A DNA stretch of 64,000 bases from NCBI RefSeq assembly GCF_036967205.1, contig NZ_CP146022.1, forward strand, positions 248,001 through 312,000, written 5' to 3'. Below, piece after piece: positions 52,400 to 64,000 of the stretch (positions are counted from its first letter, which is position 1; each line of letters opens with the position of its first letter). The notes beneath the pieces were generated by a model that was given only the letters and a program-made list of their open reading frames with translations, was not told where the DNA came from and ran no database searches. A program made the translations under genes and the position numbers. The DNA is from Streptomyces sp. Q6. Lineage in GTDB: Bacteria > Actinomycetota > Actinomycetes > Streptomycetales > Streptomycetaceae.

Positions 52400-52818
52400 C
52401 CGGGTCTCTCTTTCGGTCGGACTGGTGCGGCACCGTCCTTGCGGTGTCGGCCCGTCGGCCCGTTGATCAGGGGGCGGGCGGCAGGAGCGGGGGTCCTCCA
52501 CAGTGACCCGCCGTCCGGCGTGCCGCATCCCGCGACGCGGCTCAGATCCGGCTCATCTCCCCCGCGCCGCGCGAAACATCCCAGGTCCCGCTCAACACGG
52601 GCCTGCCGGGGCTCAGTTGGAGCCAGTTCCGGCGCTCGGCGAATGAGCCCGAAACGGGCCCCGCTCAGGTTGGATCATCGACCCGGCACCCAGCAAGGTT
52701 GCTGCTGTTCCCGGTGCACGGCAGGCACATGTGGGAGCCGTGCGGCCGTACGGACCGCGCGCCTCACCGCCGATGCCGCCCCGCCTTCTCGTGTCCGACG
52801 TCTGCGAGGACCCCCACC
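52400..52818. promoter_or_regulatory. Divergent region before conservon
   Basis: These 419 bp separate the AKR-like start from cvnA. CAGCAA (52691-52696) and TTGCTG (52699-52704) form a short palindrome 115 bp upstream of cvnA. No gene or clear promoter pair is seen. Confidence 0.4.
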
Positions 52819-54577
52819 ATGCGTGATCACGACCCCGGCCCGCCCGCCGCTCCGCCGCCGGGCACCCACCGGCCCGAGCCGACCGGCCCCGGGGCGCGCG
52901 TCGGTCTGGTTCCGGCGGCCACGGCCACGGTGGTCGCGGCCTCCGGCTACGGTGTCGCCCTGGCCGGCTGGTCGCCCGCGGGCGTGCTCGGCGCGGGCAT
53001 CTGCGCGGCCGTCGGCTGCACCGCGGCCCTGACCGGCGGCTGGGTCGGCGCCCGGCGCGCCGCGGCCGAGGCCCTCGCGCGGCAGAGCCGGGAGAAGGGC
53101 CAACAGGACGCCGTCATACGGCAGTTGGCCGCACGCCTGGAGGAGGGCATAGGCGAGATAGCCGCCCTGGCCGAGCGGGTCCGCCGCGACGAGCAGGTCA
53201 CGCAGGCCGCTCCCCCGGCCGTCGTTCCGACCGGCCCCGAACCCCTTGAGCAGCTGGGCCGCGCCGTGCAGCAGACCCTGTACGCCGGGCACGCGGCCGT
53301 GATCGCCGCGGGCACCCGGCAGCAGGTCGACGCGTTCGTCAGCATCGCCCGCAAACTCCAGGCCCTGGTCACCCGCAGCCTGGAGCGCCTCGACGGCGTG
53401 GAGCGCGAGGTGGAGGACCCCGAACTCCTCGACGCGCTCTTCCAGATCGACCACCTCATCACCCGCGTGCACCGGGCGGTGGAGAACATCGCCATCCTCG
53501 GCGGCGCCGTCCCGCGTCACATCAACTCCCCCGTGCCGCTGGCCACGTTGCTGCGCCAGGCCGTCGCCGAGACCGAGCATTTCGCCCGCGTGCGCGTCAT
53601 CCGCCCGCCCGCCGGCTACCTGGTGGTCGGTCATGCCGCGGCCGAGGCGATCCACCTCGTCGCCGAGCTCGCCGAGAACGCCACCCGCTTCTCCCCGCCG
53701 AGCACCCAGGTCTCCATCCGGCCGCAGGCCGTGGCGGCCGGGATCGTCGTCGAGATCGACGACCGCGGCCTCGGGCTCACCGGCGACCAGGCCGCGCAGC
53801 TCAACCGGCTGCTGGCCGAACCCGAACACGTCGACGTCAACCAGCAGTTGCGCGACGGACGGACGGGACTGCTGGTCGCCGCCCGCATCGCCCGTCGCCG
53901 TGGGCTGAGCGTGCGGTTGCAGTCGAACGTGTACGGCGGCACGCAGGCCGTCGTGCTCTTCCCGCACGCGATCCTCCACCGGGAGCAGACCGCGCCGGAA
54001 CCGACACAAGCACAAGCACCGGCACCGGCACCGGCACCGGCCGTCGCGTCCCGGCCGGCGCCCGCGGTGGCCGCCGTGGCCCCGGCGGCGTCGGATCCGG
54101 TGCGCTCCTCCGCCGTGACGACCGGCTGGGGCCCGGCCCCGGCCGCCGCCCCGTCGCACGCGCAGGCCCCGGCCGCCGTGCGCGCACCGGTCCCGCGCCC
54201 CCGCCAGGAGCTCCCGCAGCGCACCGGCCGCCCCCAACCGGCGCCCGCCCACGCCGTCCAGCAGCCCGCTCCGGCCGCACCCTTCCCCACGCCCGCCGCG
54301 ACGCCCCCGCCGCCGCCTCGGACGAGCGCCCCCGCTCGCCCAACGCGCCGCCCACGGCAGCTACTTGGCCCCCGAGCTGCGCGCCCCGGCCCCGGAGCAG
54401 CCGCAGTCCGCACCGACCGATGGCGAGGCGCCTGCCGCCGGTCCCGTCACCGATCTGTGGCAGCGCTACAGCCAGGGCTACCAGCAGGCCACCGAGCCCG
54501 CCCCGGTCACCGGCGGACACGCACTGCCGCCGGCCGCCCCTGACGCCCCCGCGTCCCCCACCTCCCAGGAGTCCTGA
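52819..54577 (+). pseudogene. cvnA: Conservon sensor histidine-kinase-like protein CvnA with one frameshift
   Basis: From ATG 52819: two hydrophobic segments (~25-75), a coiled coil, a dimerisation-like region (FVSIARKLQALVTRSLERLD) and a histidine-kinase-type ATPase domain (HLVAELAENATRFSPPSTQV, EIDDRGLGL). A Pro/Ala-rich tail follows. The original frame ends out of phase at 54543. Adding one base in the C-run near 54330 gives the usual tail (AAHGSYLAPELRAPAPE ... TDLWQRYSQGYQQA) and a stop at 54577 in a TGATG overlap with cvnB. The kinase domain is unaffected. An assembly error is plausible. Confidence 0.88.
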
Positions 54578-54990
54578 TGTCCCACCCCGCCCCCGCCCAG
54601 ACCCAGGACCTCGACTGGCTCCTCGCCGACTTCGCCGCCCGGGTGCCCGGCACCACCGGCGCGATCCTGGCCACCAGCGACGGCGTCCTGCGCCATCGGC
54701 ACGCCCTGGACGGCGTCCCCGCCGAGCGGCTCAGCGCCATCGTCACCGGTCTGTGCTCGATGGGCGGCGGCCTCGCCGCGAGCGTCCAGGCCGGCGTGGG
54801 TGACGTCGAGCAGATCGTCGTGCAGTGCGCGGGCGGTCTCCTGTTCGTCGCCAAGGCCGGGGAGAACGGCGTACTCGGCGTGCTGACCACGAAGAACGCC
54901 GACCCCGGGATCATCGGCTACGAGATCGGTCTCCTGGTGCGCAGCGTCCACGGCCACCTCGGGACCCCGGCCCGGACGCCCGCCCTGTGA
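54577..54990 (+). CDS. cvnB: Conservon roadblock/LC7 protein CvnB
   Basis: The product is 137 residues of the roadblock/LC7 fold (LDWLLADFAARVPGTTGAIL, LSAIVTGLCSMGGGLAASVQ). In conservons, CvnB binds CvnA and CvnD as a scaffold or GTPase-activating partner. It is coupled by TGATG to cvnA and by GTGA to cvnC. Confidence 0.95.
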   Translation: MSHPAPAQTQDLDWLLADFAARVPGTTGAILATSDGVLRHRHALDGVPAERLSAIVTGLCSMGGGLAASVQAGVGDVEQIVVQCAGGLLFVAKAGENGVLGVLTTKNADPGIIGYEIGLLVRSVHGHLGTPARTPAL

Positions 54991-55391
54991 CGTCCATGCA
55001 CCCTCACGATCCTCGTCCCTCCGACGCGCAGCCCTGGGTCTCCCAGGAGGCCGCCACCTTGCGCATGTACGCGGTCACCGGCGGCCGCACCCGGGCCGCC
55101 CGCCCCCTGGACCTGGCCGTGCTGCTGCGCACCGCCGCCCGCGCCCGGCTGGCCGGGACACCGGCGGAGCCGGGACCTGAGGGCGCCGAAGTCCTGCGGC
55201 TGTGCCGTCCGCAGGCGCTGTCGGTGGCCGAACTCGCCGCCCGGCTGCGTCTTCCGGTGCCGGTCCTGCAAGTGATCCTTTCCGACCTCATCGACTCCCG
55301 TGCCCTGGTCCCCGTACCACCGGCGAAGGCCGGGCAGGCGAGCAACCCGCACACCCTGGAGGCCGTCCTTGAAGGACTCCGTGCCCTGTGA
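54987..55391 (+). CDS. cvnC: Conservon DUF742 protein CvnC
   Basis: The product is 134 residues with the DUF742 pattern: LRMYAVTGGRTRAARPLDLA, CRPQALSVAELAARLRLPVP, then VLQVILSDLIDSRALV. The last part looks like a winged helix. It starts at GTG 54987 inside the cvnB stop. The cvnD start lies inside its 3' end. Confidence 0.93.
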   Translation: MTSMHPHDPRPSDAQPWVSQEAATLRMYAVTGGRTRAARPLDLAVLLRTAARARLAGTPAEPGPEGAEVLRLCRPQALSVAELAARLRLPVPVLQVILSDLIDSRALVPVPPAKAGQASNPHTLEAVLEGLRAL

Positions 55392-56004
55392 CCCCGCCCC
55401 CGGGGCGGACCACGAGCCCGAGCCGCTGAAGATCCTCATCGCGGGCGGTTTCGGTGTCGGCAAGACGACCATGGTCGCGGCCGCCAGTGAGATCGAGCCG
55501 CTCACCACGGAGGCGGCGCTCACCGAAGCGAGCCGTCCCGTGGACGTGCTCACCGGCACCGAGGACAAGACGACGACCACGGTCGCCATGGACTTCGGCC
55601 GGATCACCCTGCCCGGCCGGCATCTGCAACTGCTGCTGTTCGGCACACCCGGCCAGGACCGGTTCTGGTTCATGTGGGACAACCTGGCGCTCGGCGCGAT
55701 CGGCGCCGTCGTCCTCGCCGACACACGTCGCCTCGACGCCTGCTTCCCGGCCGTCGAGTACTGCGACGACCGCGGGCTGCCGTACATCGTCGCGGTCAAC
55801 CGGTTCGACCGCACCCACCGCTACACCGACGACGAGATCCGGGGCGCGGCCCGGCTGCACCCGCACATCCCCGTCGTGCAGTTCGACGCCCGCGACACGG
55901 CGTCCGCCCGGCGCACCCTGATCACGCTGACCGAGCACGCCCTGCACCTGGCGCTGACCCGGACCACCGACTCCGAACGGACCGCTCACACTCATGCCCT
56001 TTGA
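55369..56004 (+). CDS. cvnD: Conservon Ras-like GTPase CvnD
   Basis: The product is about 211 residues. G1 is AGGFGVGKTTMV, G3-like is LFGTPGQDRFWFMWD, G4-like is VAVNRFDR, all matching conservon GTPases. TTG 55369 has GGAGG 7 nt upstream; GTG 55381 with GAAGGA upstream is an equally possible start. It overlaps both neighbouring genes. CvnD is the GTP switch of the conservon complex, which behaves like a membrane-associated G-protein system in Streptomyces. Confidence 0.93.
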   Translation: MKDSVPCDPAPGADHEPEPLKILIAGGFGVGKTTMVAAASEIEPLTTEAALTEASRPVDVLTGTEDKTTTTVAMDFGRITLPGRHLQLLLFGTPGQDRFWFMWDNLALGAIGAVVLADTRRLDACFPAVEYCDDRGLPYIVAVNRFDRTHRYTDDEIRGAARLHPHIPVVQFDARDTASARRTLITLTEHALHLALTRTTDSERTAHTHAL

Positions 56005-56563
56005 CTCCGCCTCCGGGTTCCACCTGCCCGCCCAGGACACCGAACTCGCGCGCCGCGAGCAGCGGTTGGCCGAGCTGGGTCTCGATCTGCACGGCACCGA
56101 CGCGCAGTTCGACGAGGCGGCCCGCCGTCTCGCCCAGGCCGCGGGAACCCCGTACGCCATGGTGAACCTGATCACCGACCAGCAGTACTTCGTCGGTCTG
56201 CACACCCCCGACGCGCCGAACGACCCGCAGGCCGAGGCCGCCGCCCCCGTCGGGCGCACCATGTCGCGCGAGCACGGCTACTGCCCCGCCGTCCTGGAGC
56301 GGCGCAAGCCCCTCGTGCTGCACGACGTGTACTCCGCGCCCCGGTTCTCCTCGAACCCGGTGGTCGACGAGCTCGGCATCCGTGTCTACTACGGCGCCCC
56401 GCTCATCGACCACCACACGGGTACGGTGCTCGGCACCGTCTGCGCGGTCGGGCCCGACCCGCGGACCCTCGACACCTCCCGCGACGCCCTGGAGATGATC
56501 AAGCAGTTCCGCGATCAGGTCATGAACCAGATCTACCAGCGAGCGGGCGAGCCCCTCCCGTAG
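55994..56563 (+). CDS. GAF-domain protein, conservon-linked
   Basis: The product is 189 residues, nearly all one GAF domain (AQAAGTPYAMVNLITDQQYF, MSREHGYCPAVLERRKPLVL, GIRVYYGAPLIDHHTGTVLG). It begins 11 bp inside cvnD, so it is part of the conservon operon. Conservons often end with cytochrome P450 or effector genes; here the fifth gene is a GAF sensor, perhaps giving ligand or redox input. Cys and His residues occur around GYCPAV. The end overlaps the convergent acyl-CoA dehydrogenase gene by 44 bp. Confidence 0.88.
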   Translation: MPFDSASGFHLPAQDTELARREQRLAELGLDLHGTDAQFDEAARRLAQAAGTPYAMVNLITDQQYFVGLHTPDAPNDPQAEAAAPVGRTMSREHGYCPAVLERRKPLVLHDVYSAPRFSSNPVVDELGIRVYYGAPLIDHHTGTVLGTVCAVGPDPRTLDTSRDALEMIKQFRDQVMNQIYQRAGEPLP

Positions 56564-57800
56564 CCGCCCGGGACCTCGTGGCTCCCGACATGACCGTGAC
56601 GGCCGCCGTCTGACGCAGTGCGGCGGCCAGCCGGACGGACCACTGCTCGCCGCGCGCCGAGCCCACGGCGATCTGCGCGAGCCGGTGCCACTGCACGTCC
56701 GAGGTGCCGGCCGGTGCGTAGATGTGGGCGGCGTCGCGGTACATCCGCTCCAGGCCGCGCTCGGCCGACAGACCGGTGGCCGCGTGCACCTCCATCGCGG
56801 TGCGCGCCGAGTCCATCGCCGACTCGACGTTGACGACCTTGGCGTTCATCAGTTCGGCGTCGCAGGGCAGGCCGAGGTCGAGCAGGTGCACGGCGTGGTA
56901 GGCGAGGGTGCGGGCGGTCATGAGGCGGGACTGCATCTGCCCCAACTTCTGCGCCACGACAGGCTGTTCGGCGAGCGGTTTGCCGTACCGGGTCTGGGCG
57001 GCGGCGTACGCACAGGTCTCCTCGACGACCGCCTGGTGGATGCCGAGCGACACCGCCGTCAGGTTGGCCCGTCCGTACAACACACTGGAGGAGTAAGCGA
57101 CTTCGAGCCCCTGCCCCTCCTTGCCGAGCCGGTTCGCGACCGGTATCCGGCACTCGTCGAACCTCAGCTCCCCGAAGGAGAAGCCGTGCAGTCCCATCGC
57201 CGGGGTGTGCGGGGCGAGCGAGAAGCCGGGCCGGTCCGCCTCCACCAGGAACGCCGACAGACCTCGCGAACCCTCCCCCGTCCGGACGACCACACCGTGG
57301 ACGTCGCCGACGTGGCTGTTGCCGACGAAGACCTTGCTGCCGTTGAGGACGTAGCTGTCGCCCTCGCGCCGGGCCGTCGACTCCATGCCGAGGACATGGC
57401 CGCCGGACTGGGGCTCGGTCACCGCGATCGTGGGCAGGCAGTCCCCGGCCGCGACGGCCGGAAGCCAGTGCCGCTTCTGCTCGTCGTCGCCGAAGTGCAG
57501 GATCTTCGCCACGCCGAGCTGGGACGCCTGTGCCATCGCGCCCATCGCTCCGCTGACCCGTGCCAGTTCCTCCACGATGATCGTCTTCGCCCGGTGGCCC
57601 AGACCCATCCCGCCGAACTCACGCCCGATGGTGACGCCGATCCAGCCGCGCCGGGCGATCTCCCTGGCGAGCTTCTCCTCGACCGCCCGCGAGGCCTCCA
57701 TCCCCGCGACCTGAGGAGCCACCTCCGCCTCGGCGAACGCGCGCACCTCCCGGCGCAGCTCTTCGAGCCGGGCGTCGGTGAAATAGCCGTACCCCTCCAT
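56520..57800 (-). CDS. Acyl-CoA dehydrogenase family protein
   Basis: The product is 426 residues with the acyl-CoA dehydrogenase layout: an N-terminal helical domain, FAD/substrate strand LPTIAVTEPQSGGHVLGMES, MGLHGFSFGELRFDECRIPV, SLGIHQAVVEETCAYAAAQT and C-terminal YRDAAHIYAPAGTSDVQWHR. The catalytic Glu of classical members is not obvious in that last segment. GGAGGA lies upstream of ATG 57800. It stands alone, so its acyl substrate or hydroxylase-like role is unknown. Confidence 0.88.
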   Translation of the reverse strand: MEGYGYFTDARLEELRREVRAFAEAEVAPQVAGMEASRAVEEKLAREIARRGWIGVTIGREFGGMGLGHRAKTIIVEELARVSGAMGAMAQASQLGVAKILHFGDDEQKRHWLPAVAAGDCLPTIAVTEPQSGGHVLGMESTARREGDSYVLNGSKVFVGNSHVGDVHGVVVRTGEGSRGLSAFLVEADRPGFSLAPHTPAMGLHGFSFGELRFDECRIPVANRLGKEGQGLEVAYSSSVLYGRANLTAVSLGIHQAVVEETCAYAAAQTRYGKPLAEQPVVAQKLGQMQSRLMTARTLAYHAVHLLDLGLPCDAELMNAKVVNVESAMDSARTAMEVHAATGLSAERGLERMYRDAAHIYAPAGTSDVQWHRLAQIAVGSARGEQWSVRLAAALRQTAAVTVMSGATRSRAATGGARPLAGRSGS

Positions 57801-58146
57801 CAACAATCCTCCGCATGACGGCACCCCGGCCCGCGGCCGGCGGGGCGGGGTGCATCCGGATCCAGGCGGCACTGCCCGGAACAAGAGCACAGGCCACCCG
57901 GCCACCACCAGTTCACGCGGCACCCGGGACCTGACCACAGTGGATGATCATCAGCGCGGCCCGCACCCTCACATCGGGCTCATTCGAGGGTCACTCGCCC
58001 GCGGGGACCGCCCCGGACCGGTGGTCCGGACTCGAGAGGCGGAGGGCCGGCCGTCCCGGCGCGAGGACCCGTTCGGCGACCGCGAGAGCCGTCGCGTATC
58101 CGGGGAGCGGGCCGCGGGTGCGCTACCGCATTCGCGCGCGGAGGCC
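57801..58146. other. Intergenic region with hairpin
   Basis: No gene is seen. CCGGACC (58013-58019) and GGTCCGG (58023-58029) form a 7-bp stem with a 3-nt loop about 120 nt beyond the STAS stop, which may terminate the phosphatase/B12/STAS operon. Confidence 0.45.
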
Positions 58147-58575
58147 CTACCTGGGCTGCGAAGACCCGTCCGTCACGGCGTGGGCGTTGCCGTCATGAGA
58201 GGCCTCGGCGTCACCGGCGGAAGCCTCCTCGGGCACGCTCGACTCCGCGTCGCCGACCAGGTGCTCGAACGTCCCGGTGACGGTGAGCATGCGGTCCAGA
58301 CGCAGCGGGCGCCCGACCAGGCGCAGGCCGCCCCCGGCCAGGTCCAGCCGACGGCGCAGTCCGAGGAGGACGGACAGCCCCATGGAGTCGATGCACTCCA
58401 GGCCGGCGCAGTCCAGGCGGAGCACACGCACCTCGTGATGCTCGTCCAGGGCTCGCCCGACGTAGTCGGTCAGGTGGGTGCTGGTGTCGTAGTCGAGGGC
58501 CCCGGCGATGCGGACGGTCAGCACACCGTCGCTCGCTCCGGCGGTGGTGATGTTCAGGGCGGCGTAGACACTCAT
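58147..58575 (-). CDS. STAS-domain anti-sigma-factor antagonist
   Basis: The product is 142 residues. The STAS fold is clear: LTVRIAGALDYDTSTHLTDY, VRVLRLDCAGLECIDSMGLS, VLLGLRRRLD. The Ser in CIDSMGLS is the position phosphorylated by anti-sigma kinases and dephosphorylated by SpoIIE-type phosphatases. A charged tail of about 30 residues follows the domain. ATG 58575 overlaps the B12-protein stop (ATGA). It is the last gene of the operon and its probable output. The kinase partner is not in the window. Confidence 0.92.
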   Translation of the reverse strand: MSVYAALNITTAGASDGVLTVRIAGALDYDTSTHLTDYVGRALDEHHEVRVLRLDCAGLECIDSMGLSVLLGLRRRLDLAGGGLRLVGRPLRLDRMLTVTGTFEHLVGDAESSVPEEASAGDAEASHDGNAHAVTDGSSQPR

Positions 58576-59678
58576 GCGGGCTGTCCGGGTCGGGGAACGG
58601 TGAGGGCTTTGCGGGCCTCGGCGAGGATACCGGTGGCGCGCGGGAAGTCCTTCAGCTGCTGCCGCAGGGAGTCCAGCACGGGCAGCAGGCTCGCCACGGG
58701 GACACCGCGGCTGCTGAGAATGCCGGCGGCCCACACGAGGAACGTGGTGAACAGGTCGGCGTCGTCGACGTACAACGCGGTGGCGAGGTACGTGACGATG
58801 TGGTCGATGTCCTCGATCGTGCGCTCCAGCTGGAACTCGCTGTAGCTGCGCAGCGGTGGGAACGCGATCTCGACGTCCACGAGGGTCTGCTTGATCAGTT
58901 GCCGCTTCGTCTGCCGGACGACGGTGTACTCCTGGTCGCTGAGGTGCGGCAGGTCGAGGTCGGGCAGCCGGGCCGCCTCGACGGAGGGGCGTCGCAGCCC
59001 CTCGACGAGCAGCTCGTGCGCGGCGCGGGCGTCGGGTGCCCAGGTGGCCTGCATCCTGCGGGCGTAGCGGCCCTGCGGGCCGAAGGCGGCGCCACCGGCC
59101 ATGACCGGGATCCCGGCGGCCTGGCAGGCGCTGATCGCGGTGTGCGCCGTGGGCAGATGCGCCGGGACGGAGGAGGAGAGCAGGACGGCGTCGGCGGCAC
59201 GCTGGTGCAGGTGCGCGACGAGGTGCTCGGTGGGGACCTGCGCTCCGAGGTAGGCGACGCTCCAGCCGCGCAGCCGCAGGGTCTCGGCGAGCAGCCGAGC
59301 CGGCAGGGCGTGCCACTCCCCGTCCACGCAGGCCACCGTCAGCCGGCCGCGGGACGGGCCGGACCGGGCGCGGGCGGCGATGTCGGCGACGGCGGAGACG
59401 CAGCGCTCGTTGATCGCGGTCGCCGCGTGCTCCTGCGCCACGGAGATCGCGTTCGCCGCCCACTGGTCCCCGACGCGTGCCTGGACCGGAGCGATCAGTT
59501 CGAGCAGCACCCGCTCGGCCCGCTCCTGCACCTGCCCGGGTTCGCCCTCTTCCACGGCGAACCGCACCAGTGCCGTGGCGTGCGTGTCGTCGCAGTCGAG
59601 CGCCGCTCTCCACAACTGCTCGCGCAGGACGCCGAAGTTCAGCGTCTCGTCCTGGGTGCGCGTCCCGTCTGTCGTCAT
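58572..59678 (-). CDS. Cobalamin-binding protein with CarH-like cap, putative light or B12 sensor
   Basis: The product is 368 residues. Residues ~15-105 are a B12-binding helical cap with W73-x9-E83-H84 (WAANAISVAQEH), the motif of adenosylcobalamin photoreceptors such as CarH. Residues ~110-225 are a B12-binding Rossmann domain with GEWHALPARL, whose His123 is the probable lower cobalt ligand, though the usual Gly after it is Pro. Residues ~230-368 are an all-helical domain with no DNA-binding signature. Coupled to a phosphatase and a STAS protein, it probably feeds light or B12 status to partner switching. Confidence 0.85.
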   Translation of the reverse strand: MTTDGTRTQDETLNFGVLREQLWRAALDCDDTHATALVRFAVEEGEPGQVQERAERVLLELIAPVQARVGDQWAANAISVAQEHAATAINERCVSAVADIAARARSGPSRGRLTVACVDGEWHALPARLLAETLRLRGWSVAYLGAQVPTEHLVAHLHQRAADAVLLSSSVPAHLPTAHTAISACQAAGIPVMAGGAAFGPQGRYARRMQATWAPDARAAHELLVEGLRRPSVEAARLPDLDLPHLSDQEYTVVRQTKRQLIKQTLVDVEIAFPPLRSYSEFQLERTIEDIDHIVTYLATALYVDDADLFTTFLVWAAGILSSRGVPVASLLPVLDSLRQQLKDFPRATGILAEARKALTVPRPGQPA

Positions 59679-61315
59679 GCCGTGAACCTGCCCCGAGTAT
59701 GTCCGTCCACCGCGGTGAGATGCGTGGAACGTGGTGCGCTGATGGCGAGCAGCGCCATGTCGTCGTGCGGGCCGTCCCCCACCCACTGGGACGCCACCAT
59801 GTGCACGCGCTCCGTGACCGCCTCGGCGGGCAGTCCGGCGCACTCGGACAGGGCGGCACGCAACCGGGACTCGTCGAACATGCGGTCACCCAGCGGGCCG
59901 CCGTGCGCCTCGGTGATGCCGTCGGAGTACATCAGGCAGGTCTCACCGGGTTCCAGGAGGACCGTCGCCGTGGTCGCGTTCACCTCGGGCAGCGCGCCGA
60001 TGAGCGTGCCGCGGGTCTTGGCCTCCTCGACGCGGCCGTCGGTACGGACGATGAGCGGCGGCGGGTGGCCGGCGCTGGTGACCCGCAGGCGCACCCGGCC
60101 CTGTTCGCGTACCGCGGAGGCGAGCACCATCGTCGCGAAGCGGGTGTGGTGCGAGGTCAGCAGCGCGCTGTTGAGCAGGGTCACGACGCGCGCGTGGTCG
60201 GAGGCGAACGGCAGCAGCGCCTGCACGGTGTTGCGGATCTTTCCCGTCAGGACCGCGGCCTCCAGGCCCTTTCCGCACACGTCGCCGAGGACGGCGAAGG
60301 TCTCGCCGTCCTCGCCGTCGGCGGGGTAGACGTCGTAGAAGTCGCCGCCCACCCGTTCATGGGCGGCCGAGGGCCGGTAGCGGCCGGAGAAGTCGATTCC
60401 CTGGATCCGCTTCAGTGTCGGCGGCAGCAGTTCCTTCATCAGGACGCCCGTGATGTGCGTCTGCTCGGCGAATATCCGGGCGGCCGACAGTGCCGCGCCC
60501 GCTCGGGCGGCGAACAGCCGGGCGAAGGCCTCTTCGGCTTCCGTGAACGCGGCTTCCCGGCTGCGCCGCATCATCACGATGGCGCCCGCGGGCAGGCCGT
60601 GGCCGGGAAGCGGGACCACCACGACGGAGCCGATCTCGGAGGCGTCGCGGGCGAAGTCCTCCGGAATGGCCCACGCCGGTGTCAGCGCCGGGTCGATCCA
60701 ACGCGAGGGGACGGGAGGGAATCCGAGCAACGCCTCGGGCAGTCCGGGCAGTTCCTCGGTGTTCACGGCGATGCGGGCCTGCCGCACGGGACCGCCGGTG
60801 CAGGCCCAGGTCACCGGATGGGTCCGGCCGCTGCCGACGCCGACGATGACGGCGGCGTCGGCCAGATGCTCGGCCGCCATCGAAGCGGTCACCTCCATGC
60901 ACCGGTCCACGTTGAGTGACGCGAGGAGTTCGCCGGACACCTCCTGGAGGACACGCGAGCGATCCCGCTCGCTCTGCAACTGGGCGCGGGTGGCCTGGAG
61001 ATCACTGTCGTCGACCAGCCACCAGGACACCGTGCCGTCCAGGGCCCGGCTGGGGAAGGCGGCCACGGTGCGCTCACCGACGTGGCCGCGCGCCGCCATC
61101 GGTGGCGCCGCGGCGTTCTTGTCGCGGACCACGTCCGCGTGCGCGTCGGCCAGCCAGGCGGGCACGGTGTCGGCGAGCAGTGCACCGGTCCGCGCGCCGG
61201 CGAGGAGCGTCGACGCCTGTTCGTTGCAGGAAAGGACGCGCCCCTGCGGGTCCACCCGGACCATCGGGTAGGACGCGTCCGGCGCGACGGCCGTTGCCGC
61301 GTCTTGGGTACTCAT
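59675..61315 (-). CDS. SpoIIE/RsbU-type phosphatase with PAS- and GAF-like sensor regions
   Basis: The product is 546 residues. Residues ~18-100 are PAS-like (SYPMVRVDPQGRVLSCNEQA), ~130-300 GAF-like, and ~310-530 the PP2C/SpoIIE domain (HERVGGDFYDVYPADGEDGE, LGDVCGKGLEAAVLTGKI, MYSDGITEAHGG, DDMALLAI) with the metal-binding Asp residues intact. It would dephosphorylate a STAS antagonist, probably that at 58147. ATG 61315 has CGGAG upstream; GTG 61339 or ATG 61336 are alternatives. Its stop overlaps the B12-protein start. Confidence 0.92.
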   Translation of the reverse strand: MSTQDAATAVAPDASYPMVRVDPQGRVLSCNEQASTLLAGARTGALLADTVPAWLADAHADVVRDKNAAAPPMAARGHVGERTVAAFPSRALDGTVSWWLVDDSDLQATRAQLQSERDRSRVLQEVSGELLASLNVDRCMEVTASMAAEHLADAAVIVGVGSGRTHPVTWACTGGPVRQARIAVNTEELPGLPEALLGFPPVPSRWIDPALTPAWAIPEDFARDASEIGSVVVVPLPGHGLPAGAIVMMRRSREAAFTEAEEAFARLFAARAGAALSAARIFAEQTHITGVLMKELLPPTLKRIQGIDFSGRYRPSAAHERVGGDFYDVYPADGEDGETFAVLGDVCGKGLEAAVLTGKIRNTVQALLPFASDHARVVTLLNSALLTSHHTRFATMVLASAVREQGRVRLRVTSAGHPPPLIVRTDGRVEEAKTRGTLIGALPEVNATTATVLLEPGETCLMYSDGITEAHGGPLGDRMFDESRLRAALSECAGLPAEAVTERVHMVASQWVGDGPHDDMALLAISAPRSTHLTAVDGHTRGRFTA

Positions 61316-61638
61316 CGGCTCCGTGGAGGAGACCATCACGCGGGACCCGCGATATGCGGGCCCCCACCACCCTTCGCTGGGAGACTCGGGACCACAACCC
61401 GCGCCGGGCTCAACGGATTTGTCCTGCTCCGAGGACGACGCGGATCAAAATAGTTTCCATAGGGCAACAGTTGCACGCCGGGAACCGTCCCGGCAACCAC
61501 CCAGCTCACCGGCGATCACGCCGGGCATGGCTGCACCGGGTGACGAGTCCCCCCTGTCGGTACATCGACACCCGAAAGGGCCCCTGAATCACCCGCAGGG
61601 GGATGGGATCACTCACAAGGGGGACGGCCCGTCCGAGC
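61316..61638. promoter_or_regulatory. Promoter region of phosphatase/B12/STAS operon
   Basis: On the minus strand TGCAAC, 17 bp, TATTTT could be the promoter. The operator-like element at 61453-61468 lies in its spacer. CCCGC and GCGGG around 61346-61360 form a small hairpin near the start codons. No gene is seen. Confidence 0.5.
61446..61468 (-). promoter_or_regulatory. Promoter/operator element, copy 2
   Basis: On the minus strand: GTTGCC, two bases, ATGGAAAC, two bases, then TTTTG. It matches the element at 62988-63010 except at a few positions. The plus-strand core is GTTTCC, ATAG, GGCAAC, an imperfect version of the perfect palindrome in copy 1. Confidence 0.65.
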
Positions 61639-62811
61639 TCAGGAGGCGTCCTGCCGGCCGAACCAGTCCAGGCACACCACGAGGGCGTCGTCGGCCGCGT
61701 CGGCCTTCAGGTAGCTCGCCAGCTCCTGAAGGATCGCACGCGGCACCGCGGAGGCGGGCAGCAGGCGCGCGGCCTGCACCGCGCGCGCGAGTGCGCGCTC
61801 GCCGTACGCCTCCCCCGACTCGGAGAGCGCGTCGTACACGCCGTCACTGACGAACAACAACCGGTCACCCGGCTCCACATCGAACTCCTGCGCGACGTAG
61901 TCCGTCTCCTCGAACATTCCGAGGGGCAGCTGGGCCTCGAAGGGAATCTGCTCCACCACCTTGCCCCGCTGACGCCACAGCTGGGGCGAACCCGCGTCCA
62001 CCACCCGCACGCGCCCCGTCGCCAGCTCGAAGGAGAGCAGCAGGGTGGAGACGTACGCGTCTCCCCGGTGCTGCGCGTACAGCGCCTGGTCGGCCAGGGC
62101 CGCCTGGTCGGCGATGTCGATGCCGGCCCGCCGGGCGTTCCGCAGGGCGTTGACGGCCAGGTTGGTCAGCAGCGACGCCGCGATCCCCTCGCCCATGCCG
62201 TTCGTGACGGTGAGCGTGAGCGTCTCGCTGGTCGCGGCCCAGTCGAAGTTGTCGCCGTGGATCGCGTACGCGGGCTCCAGCTGCGCCCCGATCGCGTATT
62301 CGGTACGGGTGTAGGCCCGCCCGGGAAGCAGCTGCCACTGCATCTCGGCGGCCAGGGTGAGACGGCCGGCCCGTCGGGCCTGGAGGTACACGTCCGTGTC
62401 GCGGTCCGCCACGACGATCTCGTGACCGAGGATCTCCGCGAGCGCGGCGAGCTCCTCCACCTGCCGCGGCGTGGATCTCTCCTCCGGGATGCGCACGCGA
62501 AGGATGCCGAGCCGGTCGCCGCGCACGGTCACCGGCAGGAACAGATCGACGGCCCCCTCGTCCGCCACCGCACGGCTGTGCGGATCCTGGCTGGCCAGAG
62601 CGCGGCCCGCGGGACTGGCGTGGACGGACACGGGCTCGGCGGTGTACGGCAGCTCCGTCACCGGCTGCAGGACCGTGAGGCCGTAGTCGACCATCAGCAG
62701 TTCGACGTCCAGCGCCCCGTAGTGCTCGGTCAGCGCCGCCCGCACGGCCTCCAGGAGATCGAAGGGAGCGGCGGTGCGGACAGCGCGTTCCGCAGCCAGG
62801 AAATTCGACAC
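61639..62811 (-). CDS. RsbU/SpoIIE-type serine phosphatase
   Basis: The product is 390 residues. An N-terminal GAF-like region (DLLEAVRAALTEHYGALDVE, DLFLPVTVRGDRLGILRVRI) is followed by a coiled linker and the phosphatase domain (LAAEMQWQLLPGRAYTRTEY, AYAIHGDNFDWAATS, TNGMGEGIAASLLTNLAVNA, FVSDGVYDA, DDALVVCLDW). The metal site reads GDNFDW rather than GGDFYD, a variant common in one Streptomyces subgroup. GTG 62811 has AAGG upstream. It may act on the same or another STAS antagonist as the operon downstream of it. Confidence 0.9.
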   Translation of the reverse strand: MSNFLAAERAVRTAAPFDLLEAVRAALTEHYGALDVELLMVDYGLTVLQPVTELPYTAEPVSVHASPAGRALASQDPHSRAVADEGAVDLFLPVTVRGDRLGILRVRIPEERSTPRQVEELAALAEILGHEIVVADRDTDVYLQARRAGRLTLAAEMQWQLLPGRAYTRTEYAIGAQLEPAYAIHGDNFDWAATSETLTLTVTNGMGEGIAASLLTNLAVNALRNARRAGIDIADQAALADQALYAQHRGDAYVSTLLLSFELATGRVRVVDAGSPQLWRQRGKVVEQIPFEAQLPLGMFEETDYVAQEFDVEPGDRLLFVSDGVYDALSESGEAYGERALARAVQAARLLPASAVPRAILQELASYLKADAADDALVVCLDWFGRQDAS

Positions 62812-63202
62812 AGCAGCCTTCTTCGATGAACGGCCGGCTGCCGGGCGGGACAGAGAACGGGCTCTGGCGCCGCCGCATCACACACCTGCCCGGGAGAACG
62901 CTCCTGGCGGTGCGGGTTCCTCGCGGGACTGACCTCGACCACGATCCCTGTCTCGCGCCTACGAGCCGAGCGGGAACGTCACAGCACCAAAACTGTTGCC
63001 ATGAGGCAACCTAAAGCACGATTCTATCCCGTGGTCACCCATGCCAGGGCTCGGCCCGCGAGCAAGCCCGGACCGATCTGCGGCGCGACCGCACTCCCCG
63101 TCGGACCCGGGGTTACCTTCGACACAACGGGCACACGGCACAGGGGTGCCGCAGTCCCGGCCCGCGAGAGACGCAGCACTGTTCATGGAAGGTGACGGCC
63201 GC
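62812..63202. promoter_or_regulatory. Divergent region between phosphatase and MarR genes
   Basis: No gene is seen in these 391 bp. The perfect palindrome at 62995-63010 is the main element and could serve both directions: TTTTG-containing promoter on the minus strand, and TATCCC at 63025-63030 as a possible weak plus-strand -10. Confidence 0.5.
62988..63010 (-). promoter_or_regulatory. MarR-type operator/promoter element, copy 1
   Basis: On the plus strand GTTGCC (62995-63000), ATGA, GGCAAC (63005-63010) is a perfect 6-4-6 inverted repeat of MarR-operator size. On the minus strand it is followed at the same distance as in copy 2 by TTTTG. It lies about 184 bp before the phosphatase start and 193 bp before the MarR start. 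Confidence 0.7.
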
Positions 63203-63682
63203 ATGAACTGCGCAGCTCCGTCGGACGACCCCGGCACCGGATGGACGGCGGAGGCCGCCGAAGCGGTCGAGACCATGGCAGCGCTGTGGGCCCGCGCCGC
63301 CCGGTCCACGTCGCCGAAGGTGTCCGAACTTCAGCTCCAGGCCCTGCTCGCCGCACGGGCCGAGCCGCACATCAACCTGCGTGCCCTGGCCGAGGCGGTC
63401 GGCGCCGCACCGCCCGCCGCCAGCCGGCTCTGCGACCGCCTCGAAGCGGCGGGCCTGCTGCGCCGCGGTCCGGCTCCCGCCGGCCGGCGCGAGATAGGGC
63501 TGACCCTGACCACGCAGGGGCACGACGTGCTCGACACCGTCGGTGTCCGGCGCGACGAACTCTTCGGCGCGGTCCTGAGCCGCATGCCGGACGCCGCGCG
63601 CCAGGATCTGCTGACGGGGTTGCGGGCCTTCGGCGAGGCGAGCGGGCCCTGCCGGCACCACGACGACGACGGGTGTCCCTGA
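63203..63682 (+). CDS. MarR-family regulator
   Basis: The product is 159 residues from ATG 63203, with GGAAGG about 10 nt upstream; ATG 63185 in the same frame lacks a ribosome-binding site. The winged helix is INLRALAEAVGAAPPAASRL followed by CDRLEAAGLLRRGPAPAGRR. The protein ends in a Cys/His/Asp-rich tail (GPCRHHDDDGCP) that could bind metal. It is divergent from the phosphatase gene and convergent with a second MarR gene. It is the best candidate to bind the two shared operators. Confidence 0.85.
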   Translation: MNCAAPSDDPGTGWTAEAAEAVETMAALWARAARSTSPKVSELQLQALLAARAEPHINLRALAEAVGAAPPAASRLCDRLEAAGLLRRGPAPAGRREIGLTLTTQGHDVLDTVGVRRDELFGAVLSRMPDAARQDLLTGLRAFGEASGPCRHHDDDGCP

Positions 63683-63699
63683 ACGTCGTCACACCCCGG

Positions 63700-64000
63700 T
63701 CAGGCGGTGGCCTCCGCGGGACCCACCGACTCGATCTGCTCCTCGCTCAGCCCGATGTGCGCCGCGGCCGCGTGCTCGAACTGCTCCAACCCCTCGGCCA
63801 GCGTGCGCAGTTGATCCGGGGACATGGTCCGCAGCACCGTCACGATCTCGCGTGCGCGGGACGCTCGGAAGTCGTCGAGGACGGCCTCACCGCGTCGGCT
63901 CAGCCGCAGGTCGACCTCGCGCCGGCTCGTGGGGCTGGCCAGGCGCTCCACCAGGCCCGCGGCTTCGAGACGGTCGCACAGGCGACTCACCGAGGACGGC
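63700..64000 (-). CDS. MarR-family regulator, N-terminus outside window
   Basis: About 100 C-terminal residues are visible: SVSRLCDRLEAAGLVERLAS (recognition helix and wing), RREVDLRLSRRGEAVLDDFR and a dimerisation helix ending VGPAEATA. The start lies beyond 64000. The recognition segment resembles that of the neighbouring MarR at 63203 (SRLCDRLEAAGL identical), so they are paralogues arranged tail to tail, 17 bp apart. Confidence 0.85.
   Translation of the reverse strand, partial: PSSVSRLCDRLEAAGLVERLASPTSRREVDLRLSRRGEAVLDDFRASRAREIVTVLRTMSPDQLRTLAEGLEQFEHAAAAHIGLSEEQIESVGPAEATA

Follow-up and report, generated by a model that had tools for sequence, protein, structure and literature searches.

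A predicted photocobilin encoded between SpoIIE and STAS genes of Streptomyces sp. Q6: a candidate light-gated partner switch

The 64,000-nucleotide stretch of Streptomyces sp. Q6 DNA analyzed here (contig NZ_CP146022.1, positions 248,001–312,000; "the window" designates this stretch as a whole) belongs to a genome of 8.95 Mb in two contigs and carries on its minus strand an operon of three genes, coding for a SpoIIE-type phosphatase, a B12-binding protein and a STAS protein (Table I). Judged from its sequence, the middle protein is almost certainly a photocobilin, and the operon probably represents a light-gated partner switch, in which the photocobilin would act through SpoIIE and STAS toward a sigma factor. 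The original prediction, made from the sequence alone, had described three translationally coupled genes at 58147..61315; this is borne out by the gene ends and by the ATGA overlaps that join the SpoIIE gene to the photocobilin gene and the photocobilin gene to the STAS gene, that is, both junctions of the operon.

Identification of the photocobilin

Screening of the middle protein against Pfam reveals the domains B12-binding (E-value 3.9e-16) and B12-binding_2 (5.6e-13); the C-terminal half looks anonymous because Pfam has no match there. A sequence search of the PDB yields as best match the photocobilin SasPcob (chains 8j2w_A/8j2x_A, E-value about 7e-78), aligned with residues 20–361. The photocobilin domain of AbDPcob (8j2y) is recovered with an E-value of 4.4e-35, chains of CarH and related regulators, aligned through the B12 part alone, with 1.1e-11 to 2e-10, and methionine synthase and corrinoid-protein chains with about 2e-5 to 0.3. 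The predicted organization comprises a four-helix cap (W73, E83, H84), a Rossmann domain (E121-x-H123) and a bilin-binding globin at approximately residues 240–361. Photocobilins have already been published by Zhang et al. 2024 (PMC10979010, cited throughout from the available part of its text), where the C-terminal region of SasPcob is described as a five-helix globin that binds biliverdin.

The SasPcob residues Trp61, Glu71, His72, His108, His137, Asp270 and Trp296 correspond to W73, E83, H84, H123, H152, D290 and W316 of the window protein, in a mapping derived by hand in which the seven checked residues fit the 8j2w chain at a constant offset of six. Three of them probe the biliverdin pocket, and all three (Asp270, Trp296 and His137 in SasPcob) are kept, as D290, W316 and H152. 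At the position of the CXQD motif carried by photoglobins (PMC10151467, likewise from the available part of its text) the window protein has TIED, as aligned by eye, and so lacks the cysteine, which agrees with SasPcob, where biliverdin is bound non-covalently. Since the middle protein would possess a second, biliverdin-binding domain, either red or green light is expected as the stimulus.

It should be noted that W73, E83, H84, E121 and H123 sit exactly where the original prediction had placed them. The description of the protein as a CarH-like B12 sensor holds insofar as it appears to be a sensor of the adenosylcobalamin-photoreceptor type, and falls short insofar as a photocobilin with its second, biliverdin-binding domain is more than CarH-like. 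Similarly, the proposed helical C-terminus devoid of a DNA-binding domain agrees with Pfam, which finds no such domain, including the MerR-type one of CarH/LitR, at E-values up to 1; its identity as a putative bilin-binding globin had been missed. Elsewhere in the same genome, a weak photocobilin match (locus L002, 1348–2891, minus strand) consists of a B12-binding frame located downstream of a separate frame; the latter resembles by eye a MerR-type N-terminus, the two being different reading frames.

Conservation of the gene neighborhood

The phosphatase is recognized by Pfam as SpoIIE (4.7e-43) with a GAF region (9.9e-5), and the PP2C metal-binding aspartates D325, D345, D465, D518 and D519 are invariant in 37 of 37 aligned SpoIIE proteins, the window's included. 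The third protein matches Pfam STAS (9e-16) and SpoIIAA chains of the PDB (about 6e-7 to 1.5e-6). Its Ser64, which we take to be the position of the SpoIIAA-type phosphorylation site, is a serine in 58 of 61 STAS proteins, again counting the window's own.

Of 199 genus genomes, 75 have a homologue of the photocobilin (E-value at most 1e-30); by profile search, so do 64 of 394 genomes sampled from the class (at most 1e-40). Four sets of loci were retained: the best 80 of 561 confirmed loci from a scan of named genomes (Streptomyces, Mycobacterium, Mycolicibacterium, Nocardia and Actinacidiphila, five genomes giving more than one locus); the 29 best-scoring other loci from the class sample (L134–L162); 20 hand-picked genus loci (L033–L052); and 20 further picked class loci, mostly low-scoring (L163–L182). 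A SpoIIE gene was counted when found on the same strand within 600 bp upstream and a STAS gene when found within 1.5 kb downstream, using HMMs built from the neighbors themselves. With these criteria SpoIIE lies upstream at 79/80 named, 29/29 class-sample, 20/20 genus and 10/20 further class loci, and STAS downstream at 61/80, 24/29, 4/20 and 2/20, respectively, counts that are not independent since the sets partly overlap (e.g. L046 and L057) and the genomes are related. Plain BLAST on called genes gives SpoIIE as the immediate neighbor at 75 and STAS at 60 of the 80 named loci. As the Q6 genome contains 34 SpoIIE matches in its 8.95 Mb, adjacency by chance is expected at well under one percent. 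Not one of the 149 loci scanned contains a fusion of photocobilin with SpoIIE or STAS in a single open frame.

In Mantel-type comparisons, which still include the species tree and shared descent, distances between photocobilins correlate with those between the SpoIIE proteins (r = 0.86 for 73 loci, with 0 of 2000 permutations as high) and between the STAS proteins (r = 0.83 for 58 loci). When paralogues of the same genome were compared, 12 of 14 comparisons placed the SpoIIE protein closer to the SpoIIE adjoining the nearest photocobilin of another genome than to its paralogue in the same genome, which agrees with modules inherited as units. Unusual arrangements were also seen: at L182 (5521–7657) one SpoIIE and one STAS gene flank two tandem photocobilin genes, and at L126 and L044 the upstream SpoIIE gene is spread over several frames, the photocobilin match of L044 being partial as well.

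Because SpoIIE is the constant neighbor, the phosphatase is the likeliest target of the photocobilin, and we infer that the photocobilin probably acts on it, and also the sign that this action would have. Alternatively, the photocobilin could act on the STAS protein or on a remote partner, the SpoIIE gene being only co-transcribed. Indeed, ATGA-type overlaps, with gene starts from our own simple caller, are found at 54 of 60 photocobilin–STAS junctions, making this connection at least as tight as that of SpoIIE and photocobilin (54 of 75), and the published regulation in trans, in which SasPcob and AbPcob regulate a separate diguanylate cyclase in vitro, positively or negatively depending on biliverdin, concerns a cyclase and not a phosphatase (PMC10979010). 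SpoIIE is nevertheless the steadier neighbor at the named loci, and it is present upstream at 11 of 11 distant Streptomyces loci (L033–L043), where the STAS profile has no match in the stretch examined; an action bypassing SpoIIE therefore appears unlikely.

Constraint on the B12 and bilin sites

Residues were counted in five SpoIIE-linked sets: the 80 named loci, the 29 class-sample loci, the 11 distant Streptomyces loci (11 of the 12 complete matches at no more than 45% identity, G150 being left out), nine other genus loci and the ten further class loci with SpoIIE. W73, E83, H84 and H123 are invariant across all five sets and E121 is replaced once, by Asp. The motif pointed out in the original prediction is consequently not a chance occurrence, given that its W73, E83, H84 and H123 are present in 80/80 named and 29/29 class-sample loci and E121 in 80/80 and 28/29. 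The bilin site varies more. W316 is retained in 7/9 other genus loci (one Arg, one unaligned) together with D290 in 9/9, and in 10/10 further class loci with SpoIIE, where D290 is kept in 4/10. In the distant Streptomyces loci W316 is replaced by Phe in 10/11 and unaligned in 1/11, with D290 kept in 5/11 and all B12 residues preserved. From the residue counts, the SpoIIE-linked loci hold the B12 switch more strictly than the bilin pocket. Among the ten further class loci without SpoIIE, H84 is found in 8/10 and H123 in 9/10.

This invariance of the B12 residues, even at loci losing bilin residues, would also suit a module that senses the supply of adenosylcobalamin and not light, the apo or holo state setting the phosphatase activity and photolysis being incidental; in the same direction, binding of adenosylcobalamin alone lowered the cyclase activity of the published AbDPcob (PMC10979010). 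On the other hand, it is the photolabile adenosyl group that the conserved Trp and Glu-His hold in place, and both D290 and W316, needless for a pure B12 sensor, are kept in 80/80 named and 29/29 class-sample loci, the closer relatives. We therefore consider a pure supply sensor improbable. That the middle protein is the corrinoid carrier of a methyltransferase system can practically be dismissed: although its B12-binding fold is common to methionine synthase and corrinoid-protein chains, the photocobilin match is far better and spans both domains, and no methyltransferase is found among the ten window neighbors scanned.

Proposed partner switch

The light-gated switch that we favor would operate as follows. 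In the dark, the photocobilin would bind adenosylcobalamin, with His123 beneath the cobalt and the adenosyl group surrounded by Trp73 and Glu83-His84; its globin would bind biliverdin. Green light absorbed by the cobalamin, or red light via biliverdin, would break the Co–C bond and alter dimerization and surface of the protein, which in its changed form would act in trans on the GAF-SpoIIE phosphatase encoded upstream. Such trans-activation has parallels in the action of RsbQ on RsbP and of RsbT on RsbU. The phosphatase would then dephosphorylate Ser64 of the STAS protein, which in turn would bind an anti-sigma kinase encoded elsewhere, so that a sigma factor would be freed; in part of Streptomyces the operon would additionally be transcribed under a MarR-type operator. 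An output at the level of a sigma factor is somewhat favored over other outcomes; kinase and sigma factor, as well as the involvement of MarR, are elements that we likewise infer. The originally predicted control of a partner switch by light or B12 gains support from the sequence, from a solved homologue and from the conserved neighborhood, which also back the claim of an output unlike that of the CarH/LitR repressors; control of a specific sigma factor stays at the level of a proposal. The photochemical steps follow the published behavior of SasPcob, whose dimer turns into a monomer upon photolysis of adenosylcobalamin by green light, or by red light through biliverdin; for AbDPcob, light raises the output activity (PMC10979010).

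Besides the kinship of the loci, the shared descent and the loss of D290 already mentioned, a number of observations weigh against this reading. The sign of the regulation is not simple: SasPcob lacking biliverdin was an activator of the cyclase in its dark state and an inhibitor in its light state (PMC10979010). No STAS gene lies within 1.5 kb downstream at 19/80 named, 5/29 class-sample, 16/20 genus and 18/20 further class loci, and the substrate of the phosphatase may therefore differ there. At 10/20 further class loci (L163–L182), all ten falling within L163–L175, the photocobilin has no SpoIIE beside it; three of them (L171, L173 and L175) are surrounded, by eye, by chaperonin-like and dehydrogenase-like genes, and other outputs are therefore likely. 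By Pfam, neither the operon nor ten further window genes code for an RsbW-like anti-sigma kinase, and no sigma factor is found in these or in the SpoIIE-like gene upstream, no genome-wide sigma search having been made. Finally, the Q6 genome does have a heme oxygenase gene, which fits the reading, but co-occurrence with this gene, tried as a test of biliverdin use, gave no signal, with heme oxygenase in 70/75 genomes with and 110/124 without a photocobilin (hand count).

As to the kinase, the genome gives 71 matches to HATPase_c_2 at E-values up to 0.001. The sole HATPase gene among the scanned window genes (52699–54540) codes for a longer protein, part of a roadblock cluster. That cluster (52699–56560, plus strand) consists of consecutive HATPase_c, roadblock, DUF742, GTP/ATP-binding and GAF genes and resembles a Streptomyces conservon.

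Operon head and neighboring genes

Alignment of the upstream DNA of close relatives reveals a conserved block holding the palindrome GTTGCC-N4-GGCAAC. Allowing up to one mismatch, 25 sites are found in the 149 loci (1.6 Mb), of which 15 lie at the SpoIIE start of a photocobilin operon (one probably counted twice, through L046 and L057), while 2 precede the second SpoIIE-like gene and the other 8 are located elsewhere. At up to two mismatches the best upstream match is present at 29 of the 79 named loci whose upstream segment could be delimited, versus 17 of 1475 segments drawn at random from these loci. A MarR gene like that of the window accompanies 14 of the 80 named loci (E-value at most 1e-5), and the palindrome is enriched there, with 13/14 MarR-linked versus 16/65 other loci at up to two mismatches (Fisher p 2.8e-6) and 9/14 versus 5/65 at up to one (p 1.4e-5), both p-values ignoring kinship. 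The Q6 genome has two exact copies and none of the reversed pattern; one copy (62995–63010) separates the window's MarR gene from its second SpoIIE-like gene, and the other (contig 1, position 8466866) is flanked by a MarR paralogue and a further SpoIIE-domain gene. The site at L198 (8867–8882) is among those tied to MarR and SpoIIE genes. Speaking against a MarR operator, the window alone contains four sites at up to two mismatches, which is the level of chance.

It is the placement of the palindrome alone that is informative, and a role for MarR proteins of the window's family in controlling SpoIIE operons, the photocobilin operon among them, is a lead. As a genome-wide regulon marker the palindrome was rejected: at one mismatch the Q6 genome has 32 sites versus 38 of the reversed control, and over 121 genomes 69 exact sites stand against 83 (hand sum). 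A sigma-70 scan of 57800–63800 yielded 0 sites. In the second SpoIIE-like protein an Asn takes the place of the Asp found in the SpoIIE phosphatase 5MQH (NGMG vs. DGMG); homologues of this second protein occur near 7 of the 80 named photocobilin loci.

Table I. Genes and candidate sites of the operon and its head, in window coordinates
Feature	Position	Strand	Basis
SpoIIE/PP2C-type phosphatase of 546 aa, GAF region at its N-terminus (operon gene 1)	59675..61315	-	Pfam
Predicted photocobilin, 368 aa (operon gene 2)	58572..59678	-	SasPcob match, Pfam B12-binding domains
STAS-domain anti-sigma-antagonist-like protein, 142 aa (operon gene 3)	58147..58575	-	Pfam STAS
Imperfect palindrome GTTGCC-N4-GGAAAC, a candidate operator of MarR type at the head of the operon	61453..61468	-	
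Second SpoIIE-domain protein, 390 aa	61639..62811	-	Pfam SpoIIE 2.4e-38
Perfect palindrome GTTGCC-N4-GGCAAC, flanked by the degenerate SpoIIE-like gene and, in divergent orientation, the MarR gene	62995..63010	.	
MarR-family regulator	63203..63679	+	Pfam MarR_2 3.3e-8

Comparison with known systems

The closest known relative, the standalone SasPcob of Saccharothrix syringae (8J2W dark, 8J2X light), is homologous over both domains and has the same named B12 and biliverdin residues. It comes from another species, and the available part of its paper (PMC10979010) gave no mention of the operon overlaps, the depth of conservation or the palindrome linked to MarR. AbDPcob (8J2Y) shares the sensory unit as a fusion of photocobilin and diguanylate cyclase; its output is the fused GGDEF domain, and whereas it binds biliverdin weakly, a His replacing the key Asp (PMC10979010), the window protein keeps the Asp. 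With CarH/LitR (5C8A, 5C8D; E-values 1.1e-11 to 1.8e-10) the window protein has in common the Trp, Glu-His and E-x-H signatures and the B12 domain; 8C31 and 8C35, grouped with these chains, are titled probable transcriptional regulator. In contrast to CarH/LitR, however, it has no DNA-binding domain and an additional putative bilin globin, and its neighbors suggest a phosphatase as output and not an operator.

The RsbP/RsbQ and RsbU/RsbT systems of Bacillus resemble the proposed module in that each joins a sensor-PP2C phosphatase to a STAS antagonist and to an activator that is a protein of its own. They differ in that the activator would here be a light sensor and in that the operon encodes neither an anti-sigma kinase nor a sigma factor.

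STAS, SpoIIE and PP2C-like phosphatases have been named as putative partners of SasPcob (PMC10979010), and no mention of STAS or SpoIIE was found in the available parts of PMC11796333 and PMC10151467. The type of protein and its putative STAS/SpoIIE link are hence already known; added here are the depth of the linkage, the overlapping genes, a branch that lacks the bilin Trp, and the palindrome linked to MarR. None of the four was found in the literature searched, as far as the available texts go; the photoglobin paper of Schneider et al. 2022, which lies outside this comparison, may already show the neighborhood.

Taken as a whole, it appears plausible rather than probable that a bilin- and B12-containing photoreceptor serves as a dedicated SpoIIE activator across many actinobacteria, forming a general light-driven switch, that a Streptomyces branch dropped the bilin antenna and kept the B12 switch with the phosphatase, and that the dose is set, in some Streptomyces, by a MarR repressor and its GTTGCC-N4-GGCAAC box. 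The function of standalone photocobilins has been called less clear, with STAS and SpoIIE as a putative network only (PMC10979010). The strong linkage to SpoIIE in the closer family makes this putative network directly and cheaply testable. Should the proposal hold, the partner switches by which many actinobacteria control stress response and development through sigma factors would receive light as one of their inputs.

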